Positions 4,185-33,255 of a DNA stretch of 51,889 nucleotides are shown in pieces (position 1 is the first letter of the stretch; each line of letters starts with the position of its first letter). The notes below the pieces were generated by a model. The model was not told the DNA's origin and ran no database searches. It saw nothing but the letters and a program-made list of their open reading frames with translations. The position numbers and the translations under genes were made by a program. This stretch comes from Endozoicomonas arenosclerae (GTDB taxonomy: Bacteria; Pseudomonadota; Gammaproteobacteria; Pseudomonadales; Endozoicomonadaceae): assembly GCF_001562015.1 (NCBI RefSeq), contig NZ_LASA01000102.1:1-51889 (forward strand). Reading direction: 5' to 3'.

Positions 4185-6197
4185 GTGCATAGACTCAACG
4201 ACCGACAAGCCGAAGCCGTAAAGTATATTGATACCCCCTTGCTGGTTCTGGCAGGTGCGGGCAGTGGCAAAACCAGTGTAATCACCACCAAGATTGCTTA
4301 CCTGATTCAGGAATGCGGGATTAATGCCCGTAATATCATTGCGGTTACCTTTACCAATAAGGCCGCACGGGAAATGAAGGAGCGTGTCGGCAAACTGGTT
4401 AAGGGCCGAGCGTCTCATGGCTTGACGGTTTCAACCTTTCACAACCTGGGTCTGAACCTGATCCGCAAGGAATACAAGACGCTGGGCTACAAACCGGGCT
4501 TCTCGATCTTTGATGCCCAGGATGCCCATGCCCTGATTGGTGAGCTGATGCAGCGGGAAATGGGCTCAGACGAAGAGAGTGTGGACGCTGTCCAGCACAT
4601 TATTTCCAACTGGAAGAACGATCTGATTCTGCCTCCACAAGCACTGGCTAATGCCCGCCAGCCTAACGAACAACTGGCAGCCCGGGTATATGAACACTAT
4701 AACCGCACTCTGAAAGCTTTTAATGCTGTAGATTTTGACGACCTGATTCTGCAGCCGGTTATGCTGTTCCGCGAACACCCTGAAGTGCTGGAACGCTGGC
4801 AGAAAAAAACGCATTACGTGCTGGTCGACGAATATCAGGATACCAATGGCGCCCAGTATGAGCTGATCAGCCGACTGGTGGGAGATCGAGGCAAACTGAC
4901 GGTTGTGGGCGACGACGACCAGTCAATTTACGCATGGCGTGGCGCACGTCCTGAAAATCTGGCGTTGCTCAAGGAAGACTACCCAGCTCTTCGAGTCATT
5001 AAACTGGAGCAAAACTATCGATCCACCAGCCGTATCCTGAAAGCGGCTAACACCTTGATAGCCAATAACCCTCACGTGTTTGAGAAAACTCTGTGGTGTG
5101 ACTTGGGGATGGGCGACATCATTCGGGTCATACGTTGCCGTAATGATGAAATGGAATGCGAACGCATTGCCACCGAGATCCTTACCCAAAAGCTGAAAAA
5201 TGACACCCACTGGAGAGACTATGCCGTGCTCTACCGGGGTAATTTCCAGTCTCGCCTGCTGGAAATGAAACTTCAGCACCACCAGATTCCCTATCACATT
5301 AATGGCGGCACCTCATTTTTCTCCCGCTCTGAAGTCAAGGACATCATGGCTTACCTGCGACTGCTGGTGAACCAGGATGATGACAACGCTTTTCTGCGTG
5401 TAGTGAATGTGCCTCGCCGTGAGATTGGTCCCTCTACCCTTGAAAAACTGGGGAATTATGCCGGCACTCATAACTTGAGTCTTTACGCCGCGTCCCAGGA
5501 AATGGGGCTTCAGGAAGATCTTTCTGCCAAATATGTCGAGAAACTGCGCAGCTTCACCGAATGGATGGACTCAGTCTCACGTCGTTGCCAGAGCGACGAT
5601 GATCCTATTGCCGCCGTCCGTGAAATGATTGATGACTGTGGCTACGATAACTGGCTGATGCAAACGACGGCCACACCTGCTGGCGCTGAAAAAAGAATGG
5701 GGAATGTTTCGTTCCTGATCGACTCTCTGCAGCAGACTCTGGAACGAGGTGATGAAGACGCTACGGTAGAGGACGCCATTGCCCGCTTGATTCTCAGAGA
5801 CATGATGGAGCGCCAGGAAGAGGAAGAAGACAACGACAAGGTTCAACTGCTCACCCTGCATGCTTCCAAAGGTCTGGAATACCCTTACGTATTCATGATG
5901 GGGATGGAAGAAGACCTGCTACCTCACCGCACCAGCATTGAGGAAGACAATATTGAAGAAGAGCGCCGACTGACTTATGTGGGTATCACCCGTGCCAGAA
6001 AAACCCTGACCATGACTCTGGCGGGTCAACGAAAACAGTATGGCGAAATTATTGATACCACACCCAGTCGATTCCTGGATGAACTGCCTCAGGAGGATCT
6101 GGAATATTCAGGGTTTGGGAAAAAGGCGACCCAGGAACAGAATGCTGTAACCGGTAATGCCGCATTGGCTATGCTGCGAAGTCGTTTGAGTGAATAA
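4185..6197 (+). CDS. rep: ATP-dependent DNA helicase Rep
   Basis: Superfamily 1A 3'-5' helicase that unwinds DNA and clears protein blocks ahead of the replisome. Motif I is LAGAGSGKTSV (about residues 22-32), Ia is VTFTNKAAREM, motif II is LVDEYQDTN, motif III VVGDDDQSIYAWRGARPEN, motif IV KLEQNYRST, motif V LTLHASKGLEYPYV and motif VI RRLTYVGITRA. Length (670) and sequence follow E. coli Rep (673) from the first residues (RLN..Q.AV) to near the C-terminus, which favours Rep over UvrD or PcrA. The start is GTG 4185, set by homology; only a weak GAAG lies upstream. It ends in a strong bidirectional terminator. Confidence 0.97.
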   Translation: MHRLNDRQAEAVKYIDTPLLVLAGAGSGKTSVITTKIAYLIQECGINARNIIAVTFTNKAAREMKERVGKLVKGRASHGLTVSTFHNLGLNLIRKEYKTLGYKPGFSIFDAQDAHALIGELMQREMGSDEESVDAVQHIISNWKNDLILPPQALANARQPNEQLAARVYEHYNRTLKAFNAVDFDDLILQPVMLFREHPEVLERWQKKTHYVLVDEYQDTNGAQYELISRLVGDRGKLTVVGDDDQSIYAWRGARPENLALLKEDYPALRVIKLEQNYRSTSRILKAANTLIANNPHVFEKTLWCDLGMGDIIRVIRCRNDEMECERIATEILTQKLKNDTHWRDYAVLYRGNFQSRLLEMKLQHHQIPYHINGGTSFFSRSEVKDIMAYLRLLVNQDDDNAFLRVVNVPRREIGPSTLEKLGNYAGTHNLSLYAASQEMGLQEDLSAKYVEKLRSFTEWMDSVSRRCQSDDDPIAAVREMIDDCGYDNWLMQTTATPAGAEKRMGNVSFLIDSLQQTLERGDEDATVEDAIARLILRDMMERQEEEEDNDKVQLLTLHASKGLEYPYVFMMGMEEDLLPHRTSIEEDNIEEERRLTYVGITRARKTLTMTLAGQRKQYGEIIDTTPSRFLDELPQEDLEYSGFGKKATQEQNAVTGNAALAMLRSRLSE

Positions 6198-6252: not shown

Positions 6253-7647
6253 TCAAGCATCGCCTACCGCTGGCTTCTCTTTTTTCTTCTTGAGCTTAAA
6301 GCCATTCTTCTTCAGCAGTTTGATACCGGCCTGAGCCAGAAACTGTCGGTAATGCAGTGGCTTCATCCAGACAATCCGTTTTTGATCTTCTTCACTGAGA
6401 ATTTCGGTAAGGGCTTGTCTCAAACGTAAAACCTGACCAACGGGGAATTCTCCCACCATAAACAAGGGGACATTGGCACCCTCTTTGGTTTTGGCAACGC
6501 CTTCCTCACCCAAAGCATCCACTACTCGTTTGATAGCCGGGATAAATGTGCTCTTTGCACATTCTGTCAGCTTTTGCTGACCCTCGTTCCAATCTTGCTC
6601 TTTCACACCTTCTGGTACTATTTCCTGCTGCAACACCCAGAATCCAAGATAGCCAGCCTCATTCTTTTTAGACTTCTCACGGACAAAAAGATGATTAAAG
6701 TCCCTATGCGGCAAGGTGTTATTCAACCTTTCCTGCTCAGCGACGCTGTATCCCAAATCAGGCACATAAAGATAGGCACCCTTTTCCACCTGGCCATACA
6801 CATCAACGGTGGGCATGGCATTCATTGCTTTAAGCGCAGGAGCAATGTGTTTTAAATCAGGGTTATCAAAGTCAGCAGCGGTGCAACTCTCAGGCAGGTG
6901 AGAGAAAAAGTCCTGCTGCATCTTGATACCATACTGATATGGCCCACCCTCACTATTGAAAGTGACCTGATCATCCTCAAGGACACCATCACGAATCTTA
7001 TGACCCGTGGCATAAGTCGTTAGCTGAATGAAATCCAGATCTCTTGTTTCTGCATCTTCTCCGGCCTTTTGCTTGGCTACTTTACCGATCAACCGATAGT
7101 CTGCATCCATTTGCACCAGTCTATCCCTGGGAGCAATGAAGTGACGGAGCTTGAGCACCTTCTTCATATTCTTTCGAATATACTGCCCCTTGGTCATGGA
7201 TTTGCCATTAACCGTCAGAGTCTTACCCTGATTATCCTTAAAGCCTGCAATACCAATATAAACAGCATTCAATCGGATCTCGTCTGCATCTTCCAGATCC
7301 GTCCAATAAAACTTTGCCGACTTTCTCAGGTTATCCAGAGCGTTGGCGAAGAGGATCGTTTCTGAATCACGGCCTTGAAGCGAACCTGTATGCCCCATGC
7401 CGGTTACAGACCCATCATAATAATCTTCTTCGCCGGGTTCTCTGCTATAACTGACATGCACTGGCGACGCTACCGAGCTGGCCAATACTTTTGCAGGCTC
7501 ATTGGCCGAAGCCAGAACCATGTTAACTTCGGCATTGCCTTCATAAACCACCAAGACCAGATTGTCAGAGATGGTTTTGGCTAATGCCAGCGAGGACAGC
7601 AAACTGAGTGAAAGCAGGGCTATTTTGCCCATGACCCTGAACTTCAT
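6253..7647 (-). CDS. hypothetical secreted protein with Lys-rich C-terminus
   Basis: Not recognised. The 464-residue product starts with a signal peptide (MKFRVMGKIALLSLSLLSSLALA). It has no further membrane segment and ends in a strongly basic tail (LLKKNGFKLKKKKEKP). The mature part is mixed alpha/beta in character, with many charged residues and only two cysteines (in ESCTAADF and LTECAKS), which could form one disulfide in the periplasm. ATG 7647 has a strong AAGGAG 8 nt upstream. The gene stands alone, between rep (convergent) and argO (same strand, 145 nt upstream). Confidence 0.7.
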   Translation of the reverse strand: MKFRVMGKIALLSLSLLSSLALAKTISDNLVLVVYEGNAEVNMVLASANEPAKVLASSVASPVHVSYSREPGEEDYYDGSVTGMGHTGSLQGRDSETILFANALDNLRKSAKFYWTDLEDADEIRLNAVYIGIAGFKDNQGKTLTVNGKSMTKGQYIRKNMKKVLKLRHFIAPRDRLVQMDADYRLIGKVAKQKAGEDAETRDLDFIQLTTYATGHKIRDGVLEDDQVTFNSEGGPYQYGIKMQQDFFSHLPESCTAADFDNPDLKHIAPALKAMNAMPTVDVYGQVEKGAYLYVPDLGYSVAEQERLNNTLPHRDFNHLFVREKSKKNEAGYLGFWVLQQEIVPEGVKEQDWNEGQQKLTECAKSTFIPAIKRVVDALGEEGVAKTKEGANVPLFMVGEFPVGQVLRLRQALTEILSEEDQKRIVWMKPLHYRQFLAQAGIKLLKKNGFKLKKKKEKPAVGDA

Positions 7648-7692
7648 CGGATCAACTCCTTTTTTTTAATACAGCGTTGACTAACAAGACTC

Positions 7693-7707
7693 CATCACCA
7701 GGTGATG
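7693..7707. promoter_or_regulatory. perfect palindrome upstream of the 6253-7647 gene
   Basis: CATCACC-A-GGTGATG is a 7-bp perfect inverted repeat around a single base, 46 nt before the start codon of the minus-strand gene. Size and position suit an operator; no regulator family is recognised. Confidence 0.3.
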
Positions 7708-7792
7708 AAAACGTGCTTACCAAAAAAAGTACGTGATCTTCAAAGTAGCCAATGTACTGCCACTCAGACTTAGAATTACTTAGACAGAAACG

Positions 7793-8410
7793 TTATAAAA
7801 TATTTACAAAATCCATTCGCATCAGGCTGAAAGCCATGCTCCACATGATCAGACAGATGGCCAGATCAATGATTTTCCAAGCTACAGGGCGGGATAACAG
7901 GGGGGCCAGTTTCACTGCACCCAGTCCTAACCCATAGAACCAGATGATTGAGGCAGTTGTTGCCCCTAGTACAAAATAACCACGCATATCGCCGAACTGA
8001 GCACCGATACTGCCCAGTAAAATAACGGTATCAAGATAAACGTGCGGATTAAGCAGCGTCACAGCCAGAGTTGAAAGCACCAGGGCACGCATTGAACTCT
8101 GAGCCTTTCCCTCCGCCTTCAAGCGCTCTGTCTTAAAGCTGCGACGCAGCGACATCAAACCAAAACCGGTCAGGTAAATCACGCCTGCCCAGCGAGCGGC
8201 TTCAAGCAGAGTTTCATTACTCTGTATCAGGGTGCCCAAGCCAAGCACACCCGCCAGTATCAATAAGGCATCACAAATAGCACAAATAGTGGCCACAAGG
8301 ATTGGCGACTCCCGACGCAATCCCTTGGCAAGGAGAAAAGCATTCTGACTGCCAATGGCAATGATCAGGCCACCGCTCAATAGCAGGCCATCAAGGTAGA
8401 TCTCAAGCAT
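7793..8410 (-). CDS. argO: LysE/ArgO family basic amino acid exporter
   Basis: Inner-membrane exporter of arginine (or lysine) that protects against over-accumulation. The 205-residue protein has about six transmembrane segments. It carries the family signature IGSQNAFLLAKGLRRES near residues 19-33 and LAVTLLNPHVYLDTVILLGS in the middle, both close to E. coli ArgO and Corynebacterium LysE. The start at 8410 matches the E. coli N-terminus, although its ribosome-binding site (TAGGA, 2 nt away) is poor. It is divergently transcribed from a LysR regulator of the ArgP/LysG type, the classic arrangement in which the regulator, bound by its amino-acid effector, activates the exporter. Confidence 0.9.
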   Translation of the reverse strand: MLEIYLDGLLLSGGLIIAIGSQNAFLLAKGLRRESPILVATICAICDALLILAGVLGLGTLIQSNETLLEAARWAGVIYLTGFGLMSLRRSFKTERLKAEGKAQSSMRALVLSTLAVTLLNPHVYLDTVILLGSIGAQFGDMRGYFVLGATTASIIWFYGLGLGAVKLAPLLSRPVAWKIIDLAICLIMWSMAFSLMRMDFVNIL

Positions 8411-28496: not shown

Positions 28497-29864
28497 TTGA
28501 TTGACTCTACGCCCACAGAAACCCTGATAGCTTCTTCCGACAGCTCCGATCGCCCCTATAAAGTATTTACTGAAAGAAACATCGACAGTATTGAGCAGTT
28601 TCGGAAGCTGCCTGAAGCCATGCAGTTTGATATCAAGGTCGTGGCCAGCGTCATGCCTTTTCGTGTCAACGAATATGTCATTAATGAATTGATCGACTGG
28701 AATAACATCCCTGCTGATCCCATATTCAGACTGATGTTCCCTCAGAAGGAAATGCTGAAGGCTGCAGACTTCAATCTGATGGCACAACTACACGAAGCTG
28801 GGGAAAGTCGCGAAACCATCAAGAAGCTGGCTCATGAGATTCAACTGGGCATGAACCCTCACCCTGCGGGTCAACAGGTGATGAATGCACCTATGCTGGA
28901 AGGCGAGCCTGTCCAAGGCATGCAGCATAAATATAGGGAAACTGCCTTGTATTTTCCAAGTCAGGGCCAGACTTGTCACAGTTACTGCACTTTCTGTTTC
29001 CGCTGGGCCCAGTTTATTGGCGACAATGAACTGAAAATGGCTTCCACAGATGCGGCCACCATGCACGCCTATCTGAAAGCTCACACTGAAATCACCGACC
29101 TGCTGTTTACCGGTGGCGATCCACTGGTCATGAAGACCAAGATTCTCAAGGCTTACCTTGAGCCTCTGCTGGAACCTGAGTTTGACCACATTCGTCACAT
29201 TCGTATTGGCTCAAAAACACTGACCTTCTGGCCATACCGTTTTGTCAGTGACGATGACGCTGAAGAGTTACTCGAACTGTTCAAGAAAATTGCAGACTCT
29301 GGCAAGCACCTGGCTTTCATGGCCCACTTTGACCACTATGCAGAACTGAAGACCGATATCTGTAAAGAAGCCATCAAGCGAATTCGTGCTACCGGAGCCA
29401 ACCTTCGCGCCCAGGCACCACTGACACGACACATCAATGATGACGCTTCTGTCTGGGTTGAAAACTGGAAGACCCAACTGTCTCTGGGCATCATCCCTTA
29501 TTACTTCTTTGTTGCCCGTGACACGGGAGCCAAGCACTATTTCGAAATCCCACTGGCTCGTGCCTACAACATTTACCAGGAAGCCATTATCCAGATGTCT
29601 GGCCTTGGTCGTACCGTGCGTGGACCTTCCATGAGTGCAGGCCCAGGTAAAGTGGAAATCACAGGTATTACAGAAGTGAATGGCGAGAAAGTATTTGTTC
29701 TTCGCTTCCTCCAAGGGCGTAACCCTGAGTGGTGTTATAAGCCTTTCTTCGCCAAGTATGATGAAGAAGCGACCTGGCTGGATGACCTTAAACCTGCCTT
29801 TGGTGAAGAAAAGTTCTTCTACGAAGATGAATACAAGGCTATGTGCCAGGCTCGCGGACTTTAA
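28497..29864 (+). CDS. KamA family radical SAM aminomutase
   Basis: Radical SAM/PLP enzyme of the lysine 2,3-aminomutase family. The [4Fe-4S] motif CHSYCTFC is at residues 160-167 (CxxxCxxC). It is followed by GGDPLVMKT (about 206-214), the typical GGDPL turn. SAGPGK (380-385) occupies the position of the PLP-lysine loop. Length 455 is longer than EpmB (about 340) and the gene does not sit beside efp, so it is not the EF-P modification enzyme. The substrate-carboxylate and amine-binding aspartates of the clostridial enzyme are only partly matched, leaving the substrate open. The start is TTG 28497, 6 nt after GAGGA. Confidence 0.85.
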   Translation: MIDSTPTETLIASSDSSDRPYKVFTERNIDSIEQFRKLPEAMQFDIKVVASVMPFRVNEYVINELIDWNNIPADPIFRLMFPQKEMLKAADFNLMAQLHEAGESRETIKKLAHEIQLGMNPHPAGQQVMNAPMLEGEPVQGMQHKYRETALYFPSQGQTCHSYCTFCFRWAQFIGDNELKMASTDAATMHAYLKAHTEITDLLFTGGDPLVMKTKILKAYLEPLLEPEFDHIRHIRIGSKTLTFWPYRFVSDDDAEELLELFKKIADSGKHLAFMAHFDHYAELKTDICKEAIKRIRATGANLRAQAPLTRHINDDASVWVENWKTQLSLGIIPYYFFVARDTGAKHYFEIPLARAYNIYQEAIIQMSGLGRTVRGPSMSAGPGKVEITGITEVNGEKVFVLRFLQGRNPEWCYKPFFAKYDEEATWLDDLKPAFGEEKFFYEDEYKAMCQARGL

Positions 29865-29886: not shown

Positions 29887-29921
29887 AAAGTCATTTCACT
29901 CTTCAAGGTGAAATGACTTTT
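29887..29921 (+). terminator. intrinsic terminator of the KamA-type gene
   Basis: A 13-bp perfect stem AAAGTCATTTCAC / GTGAAATGACTTT with loop TCTTCAAG ends in a short U-run, 22 nt after the stop codon. Confidence 0.88.
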
Positions 29922-29978
29922 ATCCATGAAAGTACAAACCCGTTAACTTGAACACCGATAAGTATATTCCGAATTAAT

Positions 29979-30025
29979 TTGATCCAGATCAAAACTTGAT
30001 AGGTGGATGTACGTATACTGAAATT
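29979..30025 (+). promoter_or_regulatory. FNR/Anr-dependent promoter of sRNA unit 1
   Basis: TTGATCCAGATCAA (29979-29992) is a perfect FNR/Anr box. A -10 TATACT (30014-30019) follows after 21 bp, putting the box centre about 40 bp before the predicted start near 30026, the class II activator position. An imperfect dyad ATAGGTG…TACGTAT lies between box and -10, and a related ATAAGTAT half lies just upstream of the box. Confidence 0.8.
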
Positions 30026-30186
30026 GTGAGCGCGATTGGCAGCAACGAGTTAATAAGAATAATTCAGCGAGTTACGAGCCACGCCAGACAATTCAAACAG
30101 CTTCAAGTATGGAACCAAGAATAATAAGCGGGATCAGTCACAAAGCCAGCCAGTAGAAACCGGGTTTGAGGGAACCCGGTTTTTTT
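30026..30186 (+). ncRNA. predicted small RNA, unit 1 of four
   Basis: About 161 nt from the predicted start to the end of the terminator U-run. It contains a GGAACCAAG stretch shared with unit 2, then GCCAGCCAG just before the terminator (30157-30186: AAACCGGGTT, loop TGAGGG, AACCCGGTTT, U-run). A 32-codon GTG frame opens at the predicted 5' end but is not conserved in the other units, so I treat the RNA as non-coding. Expected to accumulate under oxygen limitation or nitric oxide through FNR/Anr/Dnr; targets unknown. Confidence 0.7.
30157..30186 (+). terminator. terminator of sRNA unit 1
   Basis: A 10-bp stem AAACCGGGTT / AACCCGGTTT with loop TGAGGG, then U7. It lies 24 nt beyond the stop of the convergent minus-strand gene and might slow its transcription too. 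Confidence 0.92.
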
Positions 30187-30209
30187 ATTTACAAACTTAT
30201 ATTTCGACA

Positions 30210-30953
30210 CTACTTGAGCGTATTGTCGTGACCATTTATAAGTTTCAGCGGCTGATTATGCCGAGTATTAAGTACATAGTCGTCTAGATTCTTTATATTT
30301 CTCTTGCACTTTTCCTCAGTTCCCCGGCGAGCTTCTTCACCCAGAGACTGACATACCGTATTCACTATCTCAGATTTAGAGAACAAAGCTTTCAGCTCGT
30401 CAAAAATCTGGTATGGATAGACCAGTGTTTTACCTACATGTACCTTACACATCAGTACAATTTCAACATAGCCAGGCTCTGCCCCTATATAACAGGACAG
30501 TGGACCGAGAGAATGATATTTCAACGACCAGCTGGTTATCTCATTCATTGGCGGCTTGCCATTCCAGTTAAACTGAACAACCTCCATATCCGAACCTGCT
30601 TCACTTTCATAATCCTCACAAACAGAAGCATCTTCAGGCTTGTCATTGGGCATTAATGTCAAGTCATAGACTTTTGCATCTCGACTGAAAAAATATTCAA
30701 GGGAGCCATCTGTAAAGGGCGTTTCAGCAGTAACCTCATCTTTCTGAACCCTTTCACCTATCGTCACCCTCCCGTGAAATACATCCCCCTGTAACGGCAA
30801 AAAACCAAATACATAGGTATGAAGGCCTGAAGAGCCAAAACGTTTCTGACACTGATTCAGAGAGCTTCCCTGAGAATTCTCGGGAACGGGACTGGCAAAG
30901 GAAGCACAAGAAGCCAGAAATGAAGCTGTGGCGATGAATTGAATGAGTTTCAT
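30210..30953 (-). CDS. hypothetical lipoprotein
   Basis: Not recognised. A 247-residue product with a short signal and lipobox LASC at residues 13-16 (Cys16 followed by Ala, which favours the outer membrane), so probably a lipoprotein. If the lipobox is not used it is still secreted (SFAS cut). Five or six cysteines in the mature part could form disulfides. Its position between the first and second sRNA units, on the opposite strand, interrupts the array. The ribosome-binding site is weak (AGGTAG). Confidence 0.6.
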   Translation of the reverse strand: MKLIQFIATASFLASCASFASPVPENSQGSSLNQCQKRFGSSGLHTYVFGFLPLQGDVFHGRVTIGERVQKDEVTAETPFTDGSLEYFFSRDAKVYDLTLMPNDKPEDASVCEDYESEAGSDMEVVQFNWNGKPPMNEITSWSLKYHSLGPLSCYIGAEPGYVEIVLMCKVHVGKTLVYPYQIFDELKALFSKSEIVNTVCQSLGEEARRGTEEKCKRNIKNLDDYVLNTRHNQPLKLINGHDNTLK

Positions 30954-31225
30954 CAGTTTACTACTACCTGGTGGCTGAAACTTTCATCAGACTAGACAGC
31001 TTTTTCAAGATAGACAGTTTTGAATTCAATAATTTGCAATGGATGCACAAACGTAGTTCTCACTTGAGGTCGGTCTGCTTGTTACATGCCTCAGAGCAGG
31101 AAAAATTGTCTGACAAGGATAAATAACAACAAACAGGCATATTCACAAATAAACGAAAACGGATGAACATAGGCGAATCCCATGCCAACTATTATGCGAA
31201 TAACACCTACACACGAACAAAAATA
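30954..31225. other. intergenic stretch between the lipoprotein gene and sRNA unit 2
   Basis: A 272-bp AT-rich region upstream of both the minus-strand lipoprotein gene and the plus-strand unit 2. No ORF with support on either strand. ATAACACCTA near 31199 faintly resembles the dyad halves flanking the other FNR boxes. Confidence 0.4.
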
Positions 31226-31273
31226 TTGATCTGCGTCAATCTCTCGATAAGCGTTGTTACGTATAGTAGAAAC
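31226..31273 (+). promoter_or_regulatory. FNR/Anr-type promoter of sRNA unit 2
   Basis: TTGATCTGCGTCAA (31226-31239) matches the FNR box with one mismatch in the second half-site. A -10 TATAGT (31262-31267) follows after 22 bp, so the box centre is about 41 bp before the predicted start near 31274. The spacer holds the dyad ATAAGCG…TACGTAT. Confidence 0.72.
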
Positions 31274-31408
31274 CACAGGAGCGAGGGCGAATGTAGAATA
31301 AAAACAATGTCATAATAAAAAATGATACAAGGAACCAAGTATAAAAAGCATAACACTTGATGTAGCCAGCCAATAAAAAAACCAGGTTTGAGGGGACCTG
31401 GTTTTTTT
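31274..31408 (+). ncRNA. predicted small RNA, unit 2 of four
   Basis: About 135 nt. It shares GGAACCAAGTATAA with unit 1 and the pre-terminator element TAGCCAGCCA with all units. The 3' terminator (31377-31408) has loop TTGAGGGG. Only trivial ORFs (ATG TAG, ATG TCA TAA) occur, which argues for a non-coding RNA. The stem changes to ACCAGGT/ACCTGGT relative to the ACCGGGT of the others, a compensatory change that preserves the hairpin. Confidence 0.7.
31377..31408 (+). terminator. terminator of sRNA unit 2
   Basis: An 11-bp stem AAAAACCAGGT / ACCTGGTTTTT with loop TTGAGGGG and a seven-U tract. Confidence 0.93.
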
Positions 31409-31534
31409 ATGCCTGTTTCTTATGTATCTATTAAACAATTAATTAACTTGATAATCGAAACCTCTGCCTGCCTCTAACGAATTTCATCCCAACCAGTGCC
31501 CAATTCAAAAATAAGTATTCATACTTAGCATTTA

Positions 31535-31582
31535 TTGATCCAGATCAAAATTAAGATAAGTGCTTTTACTTATAGTGAAACC
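31535..31582 (+). promoter_or_regulatory. FNR/Anr-dependent promoter of sRNA unit 3
   Basis: A second perfect TTGATCCAGATCAA (31535-31548) lies 22 bp before a -10 TATAGT (31571-31576). The spacer dyad ATAAGTG…TACTTAT (31556-31573) has a companion upstream of the box, TAAGTAT-TC-ATACTTA (31512-31527, a perfect 7-2-7 palindrome). The box centre is about 41 bp before the predicted start near 31583. Confidence 0.82.
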
Positions 31583-31727
31583 ACAAACAAAGCGGTCAGC
31601 AATAAAACGCTGTCCAAGCAGTCAATCAGTTTGTTCTATCAATGCATGAGTGGAGTAGCCTATACGTTCAAAAGTCAGAGCCTTAGCCAGCAGAAAAAAC
31701 CGGGTTTGAGGGGACCCGGTTTTTTTT
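31583..31727 (+). ncRNA. predicted small RNA, unit 3 of four
   Basis: About 145 nt. The body is largely unlike the other units except for AGCCTTAGCCAGCAG directly before the terminator (31694-31727). An in-frame ATG near 31641 gives only a 14-codon frame, which is not shared. Conservation confined to promoter, AGCCAG element and terminator suggests sibling RNAs with different targets, or fast drift of an inert body. Confidence 0.72.
31694..31727 (+). terminator. terminator of sRNA unit 3
   Basis: A 12-bp stem AAAAAACCGGGT / ACCCGGTTTTTT with loop TTGAGGGG and an eight-U tract. Confidence 0.94.
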
Positions 31728-31747
31728 CGTCTATTGAAAAGCATCAA

Positions 31748-31815
31748 AAACCAATAGGTATTACCACCTACCTTTTATTGATTTAGATCAAGAAACCAAT
31801 AGGCACTATCACCTA
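31748..31815. repeat. direct repeat flanking the unit 4 FNR box
   Basis: Two 23-bp copies (31748-31770 and 31793-31815), each AAACCAATAGG followed by a variable hexamer and CACCTA, agree at 20 of 23 positions and bracket the FNR box. Each contains the TAGG…CCTA dyad, so the duplicated unit looks like a regulator site. Confidence 0.7.
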
Positions 31816-31825
31816 TATTAGAACC
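31778..31825 (+). promoter_or_regulatory. FNR/Anr-dependent promoter of sRNA unit 4
   Basis: TTGATTTAGATCAA (31778-31791), a perfect FNR/Anr box with a different central tetramer, lies 22 bp before a -10 TATATT (31814-31819). Start predicted near 31826. The dyad TAGGCACTATCACCTA fills the spacer and overlaps the -10. Confidence 0.8.
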
Positions 31826-31958
31826 CAAGAGCTCAACAAGCACTGTCGTTCACAAGAAAAACAATAAAATCAGCAAACTGAAAAATAAGGAGAAGTCTTA
31901 TAAGAAGCAAAGCCATAGCCAGAAAGAAAACCGGGTTTGAGGGGGCCCGGTTTTTTTT
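31826..31958 (+). ncRNA. predicted small RNA, unit 4 of four
   Basis: About 133 nt. It carries AAGGAG mid-body without a start codon at useful distance, then AAAGCCATAGCCAG and the terminator (31927-31958). The U-run overlaps the stop codon of the convergent permease gene, so the two transcripts can be complementary at their 3' ends. Confidence 0.7.
31927..31958. terminator. terminator shared by sRNA unit 4 and the permease gene
   Basis: A 9-bp stem AAAACCGGG / CCCGGTTTT plus a T-G pair, loop TTGAGGGG and eight U. The permease stop TAA (31957-31959) overlaps the U-run; on the minus strand the stem is followed by TTTTC, so it probably acts in both directions. Confidence 0.88.
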
Positions 31959-33255
31959 ATTTTATTAACTGTGAAACCAGAAATCCTGCCACCACAATCA
32001 TGCCAACAATCACCACAAACAAATCATTTCTTGGCTTACGGTAATGTCTAAGCTTCTTGGACTTATAGAGACCCATAACTGGAATAAAGAATAAAATAAT
32101 CGCCATCATGGGCGCTACTATCGCATCCAGTATCATCAAGACACTCCAGTTACCCACACCAGCAATCCAGCAACCCATTGCTACGACTAACAGACTTAAC
32201 CGACGAGGCCGACCTGAAGGAATCGTTAAATGACCCGGTCTGAACTTTTCCAGGCCAACACCAATGAAACCATTCAATACTTCAATGGTTCCAAGAAAGA
32301 AGCCAAAGAAAGATGTCAGAATGGCAATAAATGCAATCACAGGCGCCAGAGTAGAGAAAAATCGATTACCAGGCTGATTAGCCAATACTGAGAGTGTGGG
32401 TAAATTTTGAAGCCTTGCCTGTTCAATCTGCTCAGGAGTCAAAGCCAGTACACAAGACAGCACAAAAAAAAGGGTAATAAGAAGCAATATAATTGAGCTT
32501 TTGAAATGAATCTGATCAGTTTTGGCAATACAACGATGCAAATCCGGGATTTCACGGCGATAAGATTGCGCAAAGGATGAACAGACAGGCGCATGATAAA
32601 AAGAAAATACCAGTACAGGTAAAGTCAGCAAAAAGGTTTTTACCGTATCGACAAGAGTCACTTCCTGCGTAAGAAACTCCATTCTCCATTGCGGGATCAA
32701 ATACAGCCCCATGCACAGAAGAACCACCGTTAAAGGGAAGACCAGACTACTGATCAGCTTCAACAGTCTTTGCTCAGAGCCACAGAACAGCATGATCATG
32801 CCTGTTACCAGCAAAAAAACCAGCAACGGGCGACTTACACCTTCGACCATTCCCAATTGATGGACAATGAAACTTTCGGTGACATTGGTAATACCAATGC
32901 TATAGAGCAGGAGTACCGGGAACATTGAGAGAAAACAGATCAGCATTAGCCATTGGCCGGCTTTTTCGCCAAAGTTCTCTCTGACCGTGCAACTGATATC
33001 ACTGTCTGGCGTTTTTGAAGACAGGCAAAAGCGTGTCAGCCCTCTATGGGTAAGAAAAACCATTGGCCCGCTTACCAGAGCCATCATCAGAAGAGGCCAC
33101 ACGCCACCGCTGCCCGCAGCTATGGGCAAATAAAGCAGGCCTGCTCCTATACCGGTACCTATATGGCTAAACATCCAGCCAGTATCTCTGGCCGTCCATT
33201 CTGAAGTAGAGTTTTTATCAACAGATCGTTTGGCTTCGATACCCTGATTAGACAT
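31957..33255 (-). CDS. HAAAP-family amino acid permease
   Basis: Inner-membrane proton or sodium symporter of the hydroxy/aromatic amino acid permease family (SdaC/TdcC/YhjV relatives); probable substrate is serine, threonine or a similar amino acid. The 432-residue protein has about eleven membrane spans. The first carries the family's unwound-helix motif SHIGTGIGAGLLYLPIAAGSGG (residues about 30-51). Later motifs are PVLVFSFYHAPVCSSFAQSYRRE and SFFGFFLGTIEVLNG. GAGGA lies 3 nt before ATG 33255. It converges on the sRNA array. E. coli tdcC is FNR-influenced; whether this gene is oxygen-regulated is not shown by the sequence. Confidence 0.88.
   Translation of the reverse strand: MSNQGIEAKRSVDKNSTSEWTARDTGWMFSHIGTGIGAGLLYLPIAAGSGGVWPLLMMALVSGPMVFLTHRGLTRFCLSSKTPDSDISCTVRENFGEKAGQWLMLICFLSMFPVLLLYSIGITNVTESFIVHQLGMVEGVSRPLLVFLLVTGMIMLFCGSEQRLLKLISSLVFPLTVVLLCMGLYLIPQWRMEFLTQEVTLVDTVKTFLLTLPVLVFSFYHAPVCSSFAQSYRREIPDLHRCIAKTDQIHFKSSIILLLITLFFVLSCVLALTPEQIEQARLQNLPTLSVLANQPGNRFFSTLAPVIAFIAILTSFFGFFLGTIEVLNGFIGVGLEKFRPGHLTIPSGRPRRLSLLVVAMGCWIAGVGNWSVLMILDAIVAPMMAIILFFIPVMGLYKSKKLRHYRKPRNDLFVVIVGMIVVAGFLVSQLIK

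Follow-up and report, generated by a model that had tools for sequence, protein, structure and literature searches.

Candidate FNR/ANR-dependent small RNA genes in Endozoicomonadaceae, with a four-copy array in Endozoicomonas arenosclerae

The DNA analyzed here, termed the window, is a complete contig of 51,889 nucleotides (nt) (NZ_LASA01000102.1, coded C262) from the 6.45 Mb genome of Endozoicomonas arenosclerae, which is assembled in 327 contigs and coded G000. Two genes anchor the locus of interest: one for a KamA-family radical SAM protein on the left flank (28497–29864, + strand), and one on the opposite strand for an Stp/TdcC-like amino-acid transporter (31957–33255, − strand), a match that is below the family cut-offs. 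Between these genes is an array of four units, termed u1 to u4, each of which appears to be a small RNA (sRNA) gene preceded by a box for an FNR- or ANR-type regulator. Units u2, u3 and u4 are in tandem (31226–31958), and u1 lies ~1 kb upstream, past a minus-strand open reading frame (ORF) of 247 amino acids (30210–30953) that is outside the sRNA family.

All elements of the units are on the plus strand, and the start of each RNA is a predicted position. A box scan finds perfect TTGAT-N4-ATCAA boxes at 29979–29992 (u1), 31535–31548 (u3) and 31778–31791 (u4), and one with a single mismatch at 31226–31239 (u2). The −10 element follows at 21 nt in u1 (TATACT, 30014–30019), and at 22 nt in u2 (TATAGT, 31262–31267), u3 (TATAGT, 31571–31576) and u4 (TATATT, 31814–31819). 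Every box is thereby near −41, the class II activator position. The sRNAs span 30026–30186 (u1), 31274–31408 (u2), 31583–31727 (u3) and 31826–31958 (u4). Common to all four are an AGCCAG element (30144–30149 in u1, within AGCCAGCCAG; 31364–31369 in u2; 31685–31690 in u3; 31917–31922 in u4) and the terminator core GG-TTTGAGGG-N2-CC. Each unit ends in a hairpin and T-run, the hallmark of a Rho-independent terminator (30155–30186 in u1, from fold and covariation; 31373–31410 in u2, 31692–31727 in u3 and 31923–31958 in u4, from the fold), and the T-run of u4 overlaps the end of the convergent transporter gene by two bases. In the terminator stem of u2, an A-U pair stands in place of one G-C pair.

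The boxes, −10 elements, spacings of 21–22 base pairs, class II placement and compensatory change in u2 all agree with the initial annotation of this DNA. Its description of the 3' end holds for the AGCCAG element and the terminator core. The segment that it called the terminator loop, however, partly pairs in predicted folds, where its U and G/A bases are weakly paired and GAGG alone stays unpaired.

When both strands of the 51.9 kb window are scanned for the combination of a box (≤1 mismatch), a −10 element (≤1 mismatch, at 21 or 22 nt) and a hairpin/T-run terminator, exactly the four units described in the initial annotation are recovered, and no complete unit is found in 100 first-order Markov sequences of equal length and dinucleotide composition, under thresholds that were chosen with the four units already known. 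The FNR box by itself (≤1 mismatch) occurs seven times in the window versus 2.38 expected, a moderate enrichment that is not decisive. One additional FNR-like site, with one mismatch, lies between u3 and u4 (31734–31747, + strand); it has no proper −10 element and is probably due to chance.

A covariance search of relatives for the 3' module, which the initial annotation had suggested as a check, shows that the arrangement recurs well beyond this array. Two covariance models, R1 (3' modules of 19 sequences) and R2 (24 sequences), were run on 37 Endozoicomonadaceae genomes, and 35 modules (of 47 R2 rows) were accepted in 24 of these genomes: 10 of 10 in the genus of the window, 8 of 12 in g5, 5 of 6 in g8 and 1 of 3 in g4. 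Because the promoter is part of neither model, the presence of a box is an independent test. Of the 35 modules, 34 are located behind an FNR box (≤2 mismatches, with two mismatches in G017, G032 and G034) that has a −10 element at 21–22 nt. Counted as distinct promoters, 32 of 33 carry both elements with the candidate FNR box at the class II position, and the promoter–module plan recurs in 23 of the 24 module-bearing genomes. Weak matches in G024 (E 0.108) and G023 (E 7.7e-4) have perfect boxes, are situated at the core locus described below, and were accepted. The other 12 R2 rows (E 0.05–0.47) were set aside, and none of them has a box on its own strand. Promoters that combine box and −10 element are rare. 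They number 64 in 886,756 strand-bases of loci, a count that takes in promoters of the family itself, several repeatedly, and there are none in 105,110 strand-bases of non-family loci.

Some modules have unusual arrangements. In G013 (L181, 6359–6680) and G017 (L248, ~7949–8155), both on the minus strand, two tandem modules follow a single FNR promoter, a form that is a possible intermediate of module duplication. At the core module of G014 (L249, ~5565–5666), the promoter region has seemingly been deleted or recombined, possibly as an effect of the assembly.

Beyond Endozoicomonadaceae, two large searches used stricter filters, under which weak matches are lost and distant relatives may exist: R1 gave 31 matches (E ≤0.1) in 27 non-family genomes (145 searched), with no box at any of the 17 that were fetched, and R2 gave three non-family matches (E ≤0.01) among 390 genomes of the order (18 listed as Endozoicomonadaceae), again with no box at any of the three. 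A search of kamA loci from 80 records, Parendozoicomonas callyspongiae among them, yielded one match up to E 1 (E 0.18). Within the filters used, no convincing family member was recovered outside Endozoicomonadaceae. Rfam at its gathering scores found Alpha_RBS alone in the whole window and seven family loci. Extending the Rfam search of 29900–32000 to E 10 gave 14 matches, all below the gathering score and FnrS not among them. Thr_leader, the best of these (E 0.003; 30.8 bits versus a gathering score of 55), is antisense to the u2 terminator and was rejected. The family has no Rfam match and is apparently undescribed.

The initial annotation had also pointed out that the RNA bodies diverge while the promoter and 3' end stay constant, and this pattern is borne out. 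Once the final 65 nt are trimmed off, the u1 to u4 bodies align with one another no better than shuffled sequences (z −0.7 to 1.7); AGCCAG and the terminator are shared by the copies. The u2 body shares 83% identity with that of its G025 orthologue (z 12.4); for u1 and the G025 copy, z is 2.4. Across three relatives, u2 is 78–95% identical in its body, 69–84% in its 3' module, 69–74% from box to −10 element, 68–70% in the 40 nt before the box, and 28–45% farther upstream. Because the left neighbors differ and the far-upstream DNA may not be orthologous, a fairer yardstick is the adjacent transporter coding DNA, which is 74–75% identical in two species. By this comparison, the u2 body looks like a selected part of the unit. 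For u3 and u4, no orthologue was found among the family genomes, so the sign of selection on a body comes from u2. In the terminator stems, 94.6% of cells are paired, double-change cells number 30 versus 8.8 in shuffles, and the covariation score is 0.481 versus ≤0.176 for slid versions.

The E. arenosclerae genome contains five copies of the unit, four in the window and one on contig C279, which came up, together with related copies in further species, when the terminator core was used as a search pattern. This fifth copy is of the syntenic "core" type, which resides upstream of genes for a TIGR01777-type epimerase and an ABC transporter ATPase. The same setting is observed in G019, G022–G027, G004, G007, G009, G010, G013, G014, G016 and G017, where the names of the neighboring genes were assigned by eye (they were tested in G000 only) and where the epimerase ORF of G023 and G024 is partial. 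An epimerase motif is also near the module in G021 and G011, and the same test finds none in G020. By eye, CcmE- or NapC-like genes lie near the core copies of G023 (L241) and G024 (L242), hinting that the core sRNA is tied to nitrate respiration. The g8 copy adjoins an SDR-type gene in G031, G032, G034 and G036 (by eye).

The locus of the array, which runs from bactofilin/kamA to transporter/rplQ, holds one unit in each of G023–G027 and four in G000; the transporter loci examined in G019–G022, with kamA part of three of them, gave no unit. The initial annotation had named lack of the four-unit structure in every relative as an outcome that would count against it, and the four-copy form was indeed found in none of the other 36 Endozoicomonadaceae genomes. 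However, the plan with one or two copies is widespread, so the array is best regarded as a local expansion rather than an artefact.

A tree was built from 27 sequences, each consisting of promoter and unit; it is limited by their shortness and divergence and omits G013 (double module), G014, G017, G035 and the core copies of G023 and G024. In this tree, u1 falls in with the core clade with moderate support (91/95, short of the starred level), u2 joins the single copies from G025, G026 and G027 (99/99), and u3 pairs with u4 (96/95). Three lineages indicate that the array is composite: u1 is of the core type and retains the core block AAGCGGGA, u2 is orthologous to single copies at the same locus, and the u3/u4 pair is seen only here. 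An array of four is present, with three units in tandem and u1 apart, but in view of the three lineages the units are not the plain siblings that the initial annotation had made of them, and a fifth copy lies elsewhere.

Three HTH_Crp_2 proteins are encoded in the genome. One of them (in L188) matches NF008365 (Fnr) with 314 bits (cut-off 228) and has, by eye, cysteines arranged as C-X2-C-X5-C plus a central C, as expected of FNR. The other two have no such cysteine cluster, again by eye.

Several of the promoters carry a second palindrome. The pattern RTARGTR-N4-YACYTAY is located 5–6 nt before the FNR box of u3 (ATAAGT-N6-ACTTAG, 31511–31528, 6 nt before the box), of u4 (ATAGGT-N6-ACCTAC, 31754–31771, also 6 nt) and of seven other promoters, in two genera. 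Scored within 2–8 nt before the box, 11–14 of 14 positions match in u3, u4, the core copies of G023 and G024, and G031, G032, G034, G035 and G036. Most core copies score 8–11 of 14, mainly through the left half by eye. The upstream palindrome is thus not general: for u2 with its three relatives and for G004, which lack it, the score is 6–7. A similar palindrome is present between box and −10 element, overlapping the latter, in u1 (ATAGGT-N6-ACGTAT, 29999–30016, 13 of 14 positions), u2 (31247–31264, 12 of 14), u3 (ATAAGTGCTTTTACTTAT, 31556–31573) and u4 (31799–31816, 13 of 14); this downstream copy is absent in the four g8 promoters tested. The pattern was derived from u3 and u4, and the 18 rows scored are related, so combined P values are not independent; for the four g8 rows outside the derivation, P was 0.001, below 0.001, 0.03 and 0.05.

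The palindrome alone was rejected as a regulon marker: in 10 genomes of the genus, ATARGTRNNNNYACYTAT occurs in six genomes at one site each, compared with nine sites for a reversed control, and an FNR box accompanies only the site of u3 in the window. Support for the palindrome comes from its position near the box.

The half-site fits the NarL heptamer. The half-site and spacing of TAAGTA-N4-TACTTA also resemble a published FixJ site, TAAGTAATTTCCCTTA (PMC4999443). NarL is among the proteins encoded in the genome (301 bits, cut-off 250); by eye, its gene has a kinase-size ORF and nap/ccm-like genes next to it. A FixJ-like regulator is also encoded, at 241 bits, below the cut-off of 255. The gene for this regulator (L261, 5534–6187, − strand, contig C237) is followed by a short separate ORF, and by eye none of the ORFs adjoining it was recognized as a kinase. 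These features suggest that the second palindrome may be an added input by a response regulator of the NarL/FixJ type. The upstream palindrome would suit activation, and the copy over the −10 element would suit repression.

As the initial annotation had proposed, genes for FNR/ANR-controlled sRNAs are the best-supported reading of these sequences, given the presence of an FNR protein, the recurrence of the plan, the covariation and the u2 body. We consider it likely that the units belong to a family of genes for trans-acting sRNAs with class II FNR/ANR-dependent promoters (with few exceptions) and intrinsic terminators. The promoter plan, the covarying terminator, the recurrence in four genera and the conservation of the u2 body are computed results. 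It is established that FNR gains its cluster as oxygen falls and then activates transcription. Judging from the promoter anatomy, a fall in oxygen would place cluster-bearing FNR at about −41 of each unit, and each would then be transcribed, with the terminator hairpin ending the RNA. The bodies would base-pair with mRNAs in trans, probably with an RNA chaperone, and, having diverged, may reach different targets. We infer action in trans through the bodies from body conservation.

Several observations weigh against this reading. Thirteen of the 37 family genomes have no detectable member, and the G014 module has no FNR box. Two of five covariation measures are weak: pairs with a double change (6 versus 4.2, with 33 of 500 shuffles doing as well) are not clearly above shuffles, and neither are pair types (17 versus 15.1, 69 of 500 shuffles). 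Within the conserved block, 9 of 27 units have a short reading frame in common. Last, the complement of the core block (GYTCCCGCTTC) occurs at 68 sites in 10 genomes of the genus, compared with 51 for a reversed control, and 7 of the 68 are sRNA genes themselves; among 30 sites fetched (four of them sRNA genes), six are near the ATG of an open frame, and by eye none is a convincing target.

Other explanations appear much less probable. The foremost, though still improbable, is that the RNAs are decoys that titrate a CsrA/RsmA-type protein by GGA motifs (NGGA-AUAA, GCGGGA and the terminator GGGGA) when oxygen falls. Core-type units in four genera have two GGA motifs 18–21 nt apart, start to start, and most have an additional GGA in the terminator. 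Moreover, a GacA-type regulator is encoded in the genome (308 bits, cut-off 280), and the double module of G013 contains 11 GGA versus 6.0 in mononucleotide shuffles. However, the total for 27 units, a count that omits G027b (no terminator detected by the script), is 100 GGA versus 86 in mononucleotide and 101 in dinucleotide shuffles, which is no excess. In addition, u4 has one GGA and u3 two, and the terminator GGA is mostly predicted to be paired (GGAN unpaired probability 0.04).

There is little reason to favor the view that the units are short mRNAs encoding small proteins, even though each has its own promoter and terminator. The frame mentioned above starts at an ATG in the conserved block and runs for 15–27 codons (in u1, G019–G022, G007, G010, G016 and G013), and its peptides are similar, for example MEPRIISGISHKASQ and MDIITEAGTAKTASQ. 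The initial annotation was correct that the bodies (~132–161 nt) have no ORF common to the four units of the array, and no ORF is shared by every unit of the family. In the other 18 units, including u2–u4, the G000 core copy, G004, G009 and the four g8 units examined, the frame is absent, and the conserved block is kept as RNA where this is so. The frame of G007, G010, G016 and G020 reads on through the terminator, and a simple test on nine units finds no Shine-Dalgarno-like motif.

An equally slight chance attaches to the units being functionless, transcribed remnants of duplicated promoters and terminators. Paralogue bodies do differ as much as shuffled sequence, and this reading may hold for u3 and u4, for which no orthologue is known. 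Nevertheless, the u2 body is better conserved across species than the neighboring coding DNA, and the terminator stems covary.

Least probable is an action in cis on the convergent transporter gene, as antisense or termination elements, because although in u4, as in the single copies of G024, G025 and G026, the terminator abuts or overlaps the 3' end of that gene and a broken transporter remnant (57% over 75 residues) lies beside the G027 unit (L165, ~7450–7729), u1–u3 do not overlap the gene, the G023 copy has no adjoining transporter match (nothing below E 3.8), and the core and g8 copies sit at other loci. The G027 unit retains its FNR box and terminator despite the broken neighbor.

If the units are FNR/ANR-dependent sRNA genes, they may, more tentatively, represent a "cassette" system, a proposal to which we give somewhat less than even weight. 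A fixed chassis, consisting of the FNR box, AGCCAG, the GAGGGG-motif terminator and in some cases a second operator for redox or nitrate, would be copied within and between loci, and the body would be replaced or would diverge until no longer recognizable and then come under selection of its own. If this is true, one oxygen switch gains mRNA targets through gene duplication, and the four-copy array of this species would be the youngest step.

Regarding the flanking genes, the closest relative of the KamA-family protein among titled contigs is from Parendozoicomonas callyspongiae, also of Endozoicomonadaceae (79% identity). The protein scores under the cut-offs of all six NCBIfam families that it matches. 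It has at least 590 related stretches, and many of the best 80 are in Marinobacter and Halomonas. The 247-amino-acid ORF between u1 and u2 matches nothing in Pfam or NCBIfam at E 0.001; its start resembles a signal peptide, judged by eye.

Endozoicomonadaceae include symbionts of marine animals. Members of this bacterial group apparently possess a set of related regulatory RNAs governed by oxygen, and a single oxygen signal could switch on several different ones. These RNAs also offer a test case for how sRNAs gain targets, in that orthologous u2 bodies are conserved while paralogues share the switch and terminator. For comparison, there are species that have one copy, two copies or five.

Individual sRNAs under anaerobic control have been described. 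FnrS of enterobacteria is an FNR-controlled anaerobic sRNA that represses many mRNAs and has ArcA and CRP as its other inputs (PMC8139620). The units in the window differ in having no Rfam match to FnrS, several diverged copies and a different second operator. In Pseudomonas aeruginosa, PhrS is ANR-dependent and PaiI is NarL- and ANR-dependent (PMC5703892). By description, our family is set apart from these by its multiplied copies and the candidate box at the class II position of 32 of 33 promoters, and it has no Rfam sRNA match at gathering score.

Multicopy sRNAs with their own promoters under one regulator are also known, among them Qrr and the csRNAs. The Listeria sRNAs LhrC1–5 are of this kind, with lhrC1–4 at one locus and lhrC5 elsewhere, and their copies have "virtual sequence identity" (PMC4132741). 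In contrast, the units here share promoter and 3' module but have bodies that do not align above shuffles, and the regulator would be of the FNR type. DicF of Escherichia coli, which accumulates in low oxygen, is present four times in an O157:H7 strain (PMC8139620). Compared by description, it differs from the present units, which have no Rfam match to it, and an array of FNR boxes does not figure in the part of the DicF account consulted. The Neisseria sibling sRNAs NgncR_162 and NgncR_163, two copies by name, control metabolism and were likewise compared by description, from partial text. A literature search, with most subscription papers outside its reach, returned no paper joining Endozoicomonas, small RNA and FNR; three papers name Endozoicomonas and sRNA, with one to three mentions of sRNA apiece. 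No sRNA array under FNR was recognized in the listed titles and openings of abstracts. FNR/ANR-dependent sRNAs and multicopy sRNAs are thus known separately, and what appears to be new is a separate family that combines both traits.

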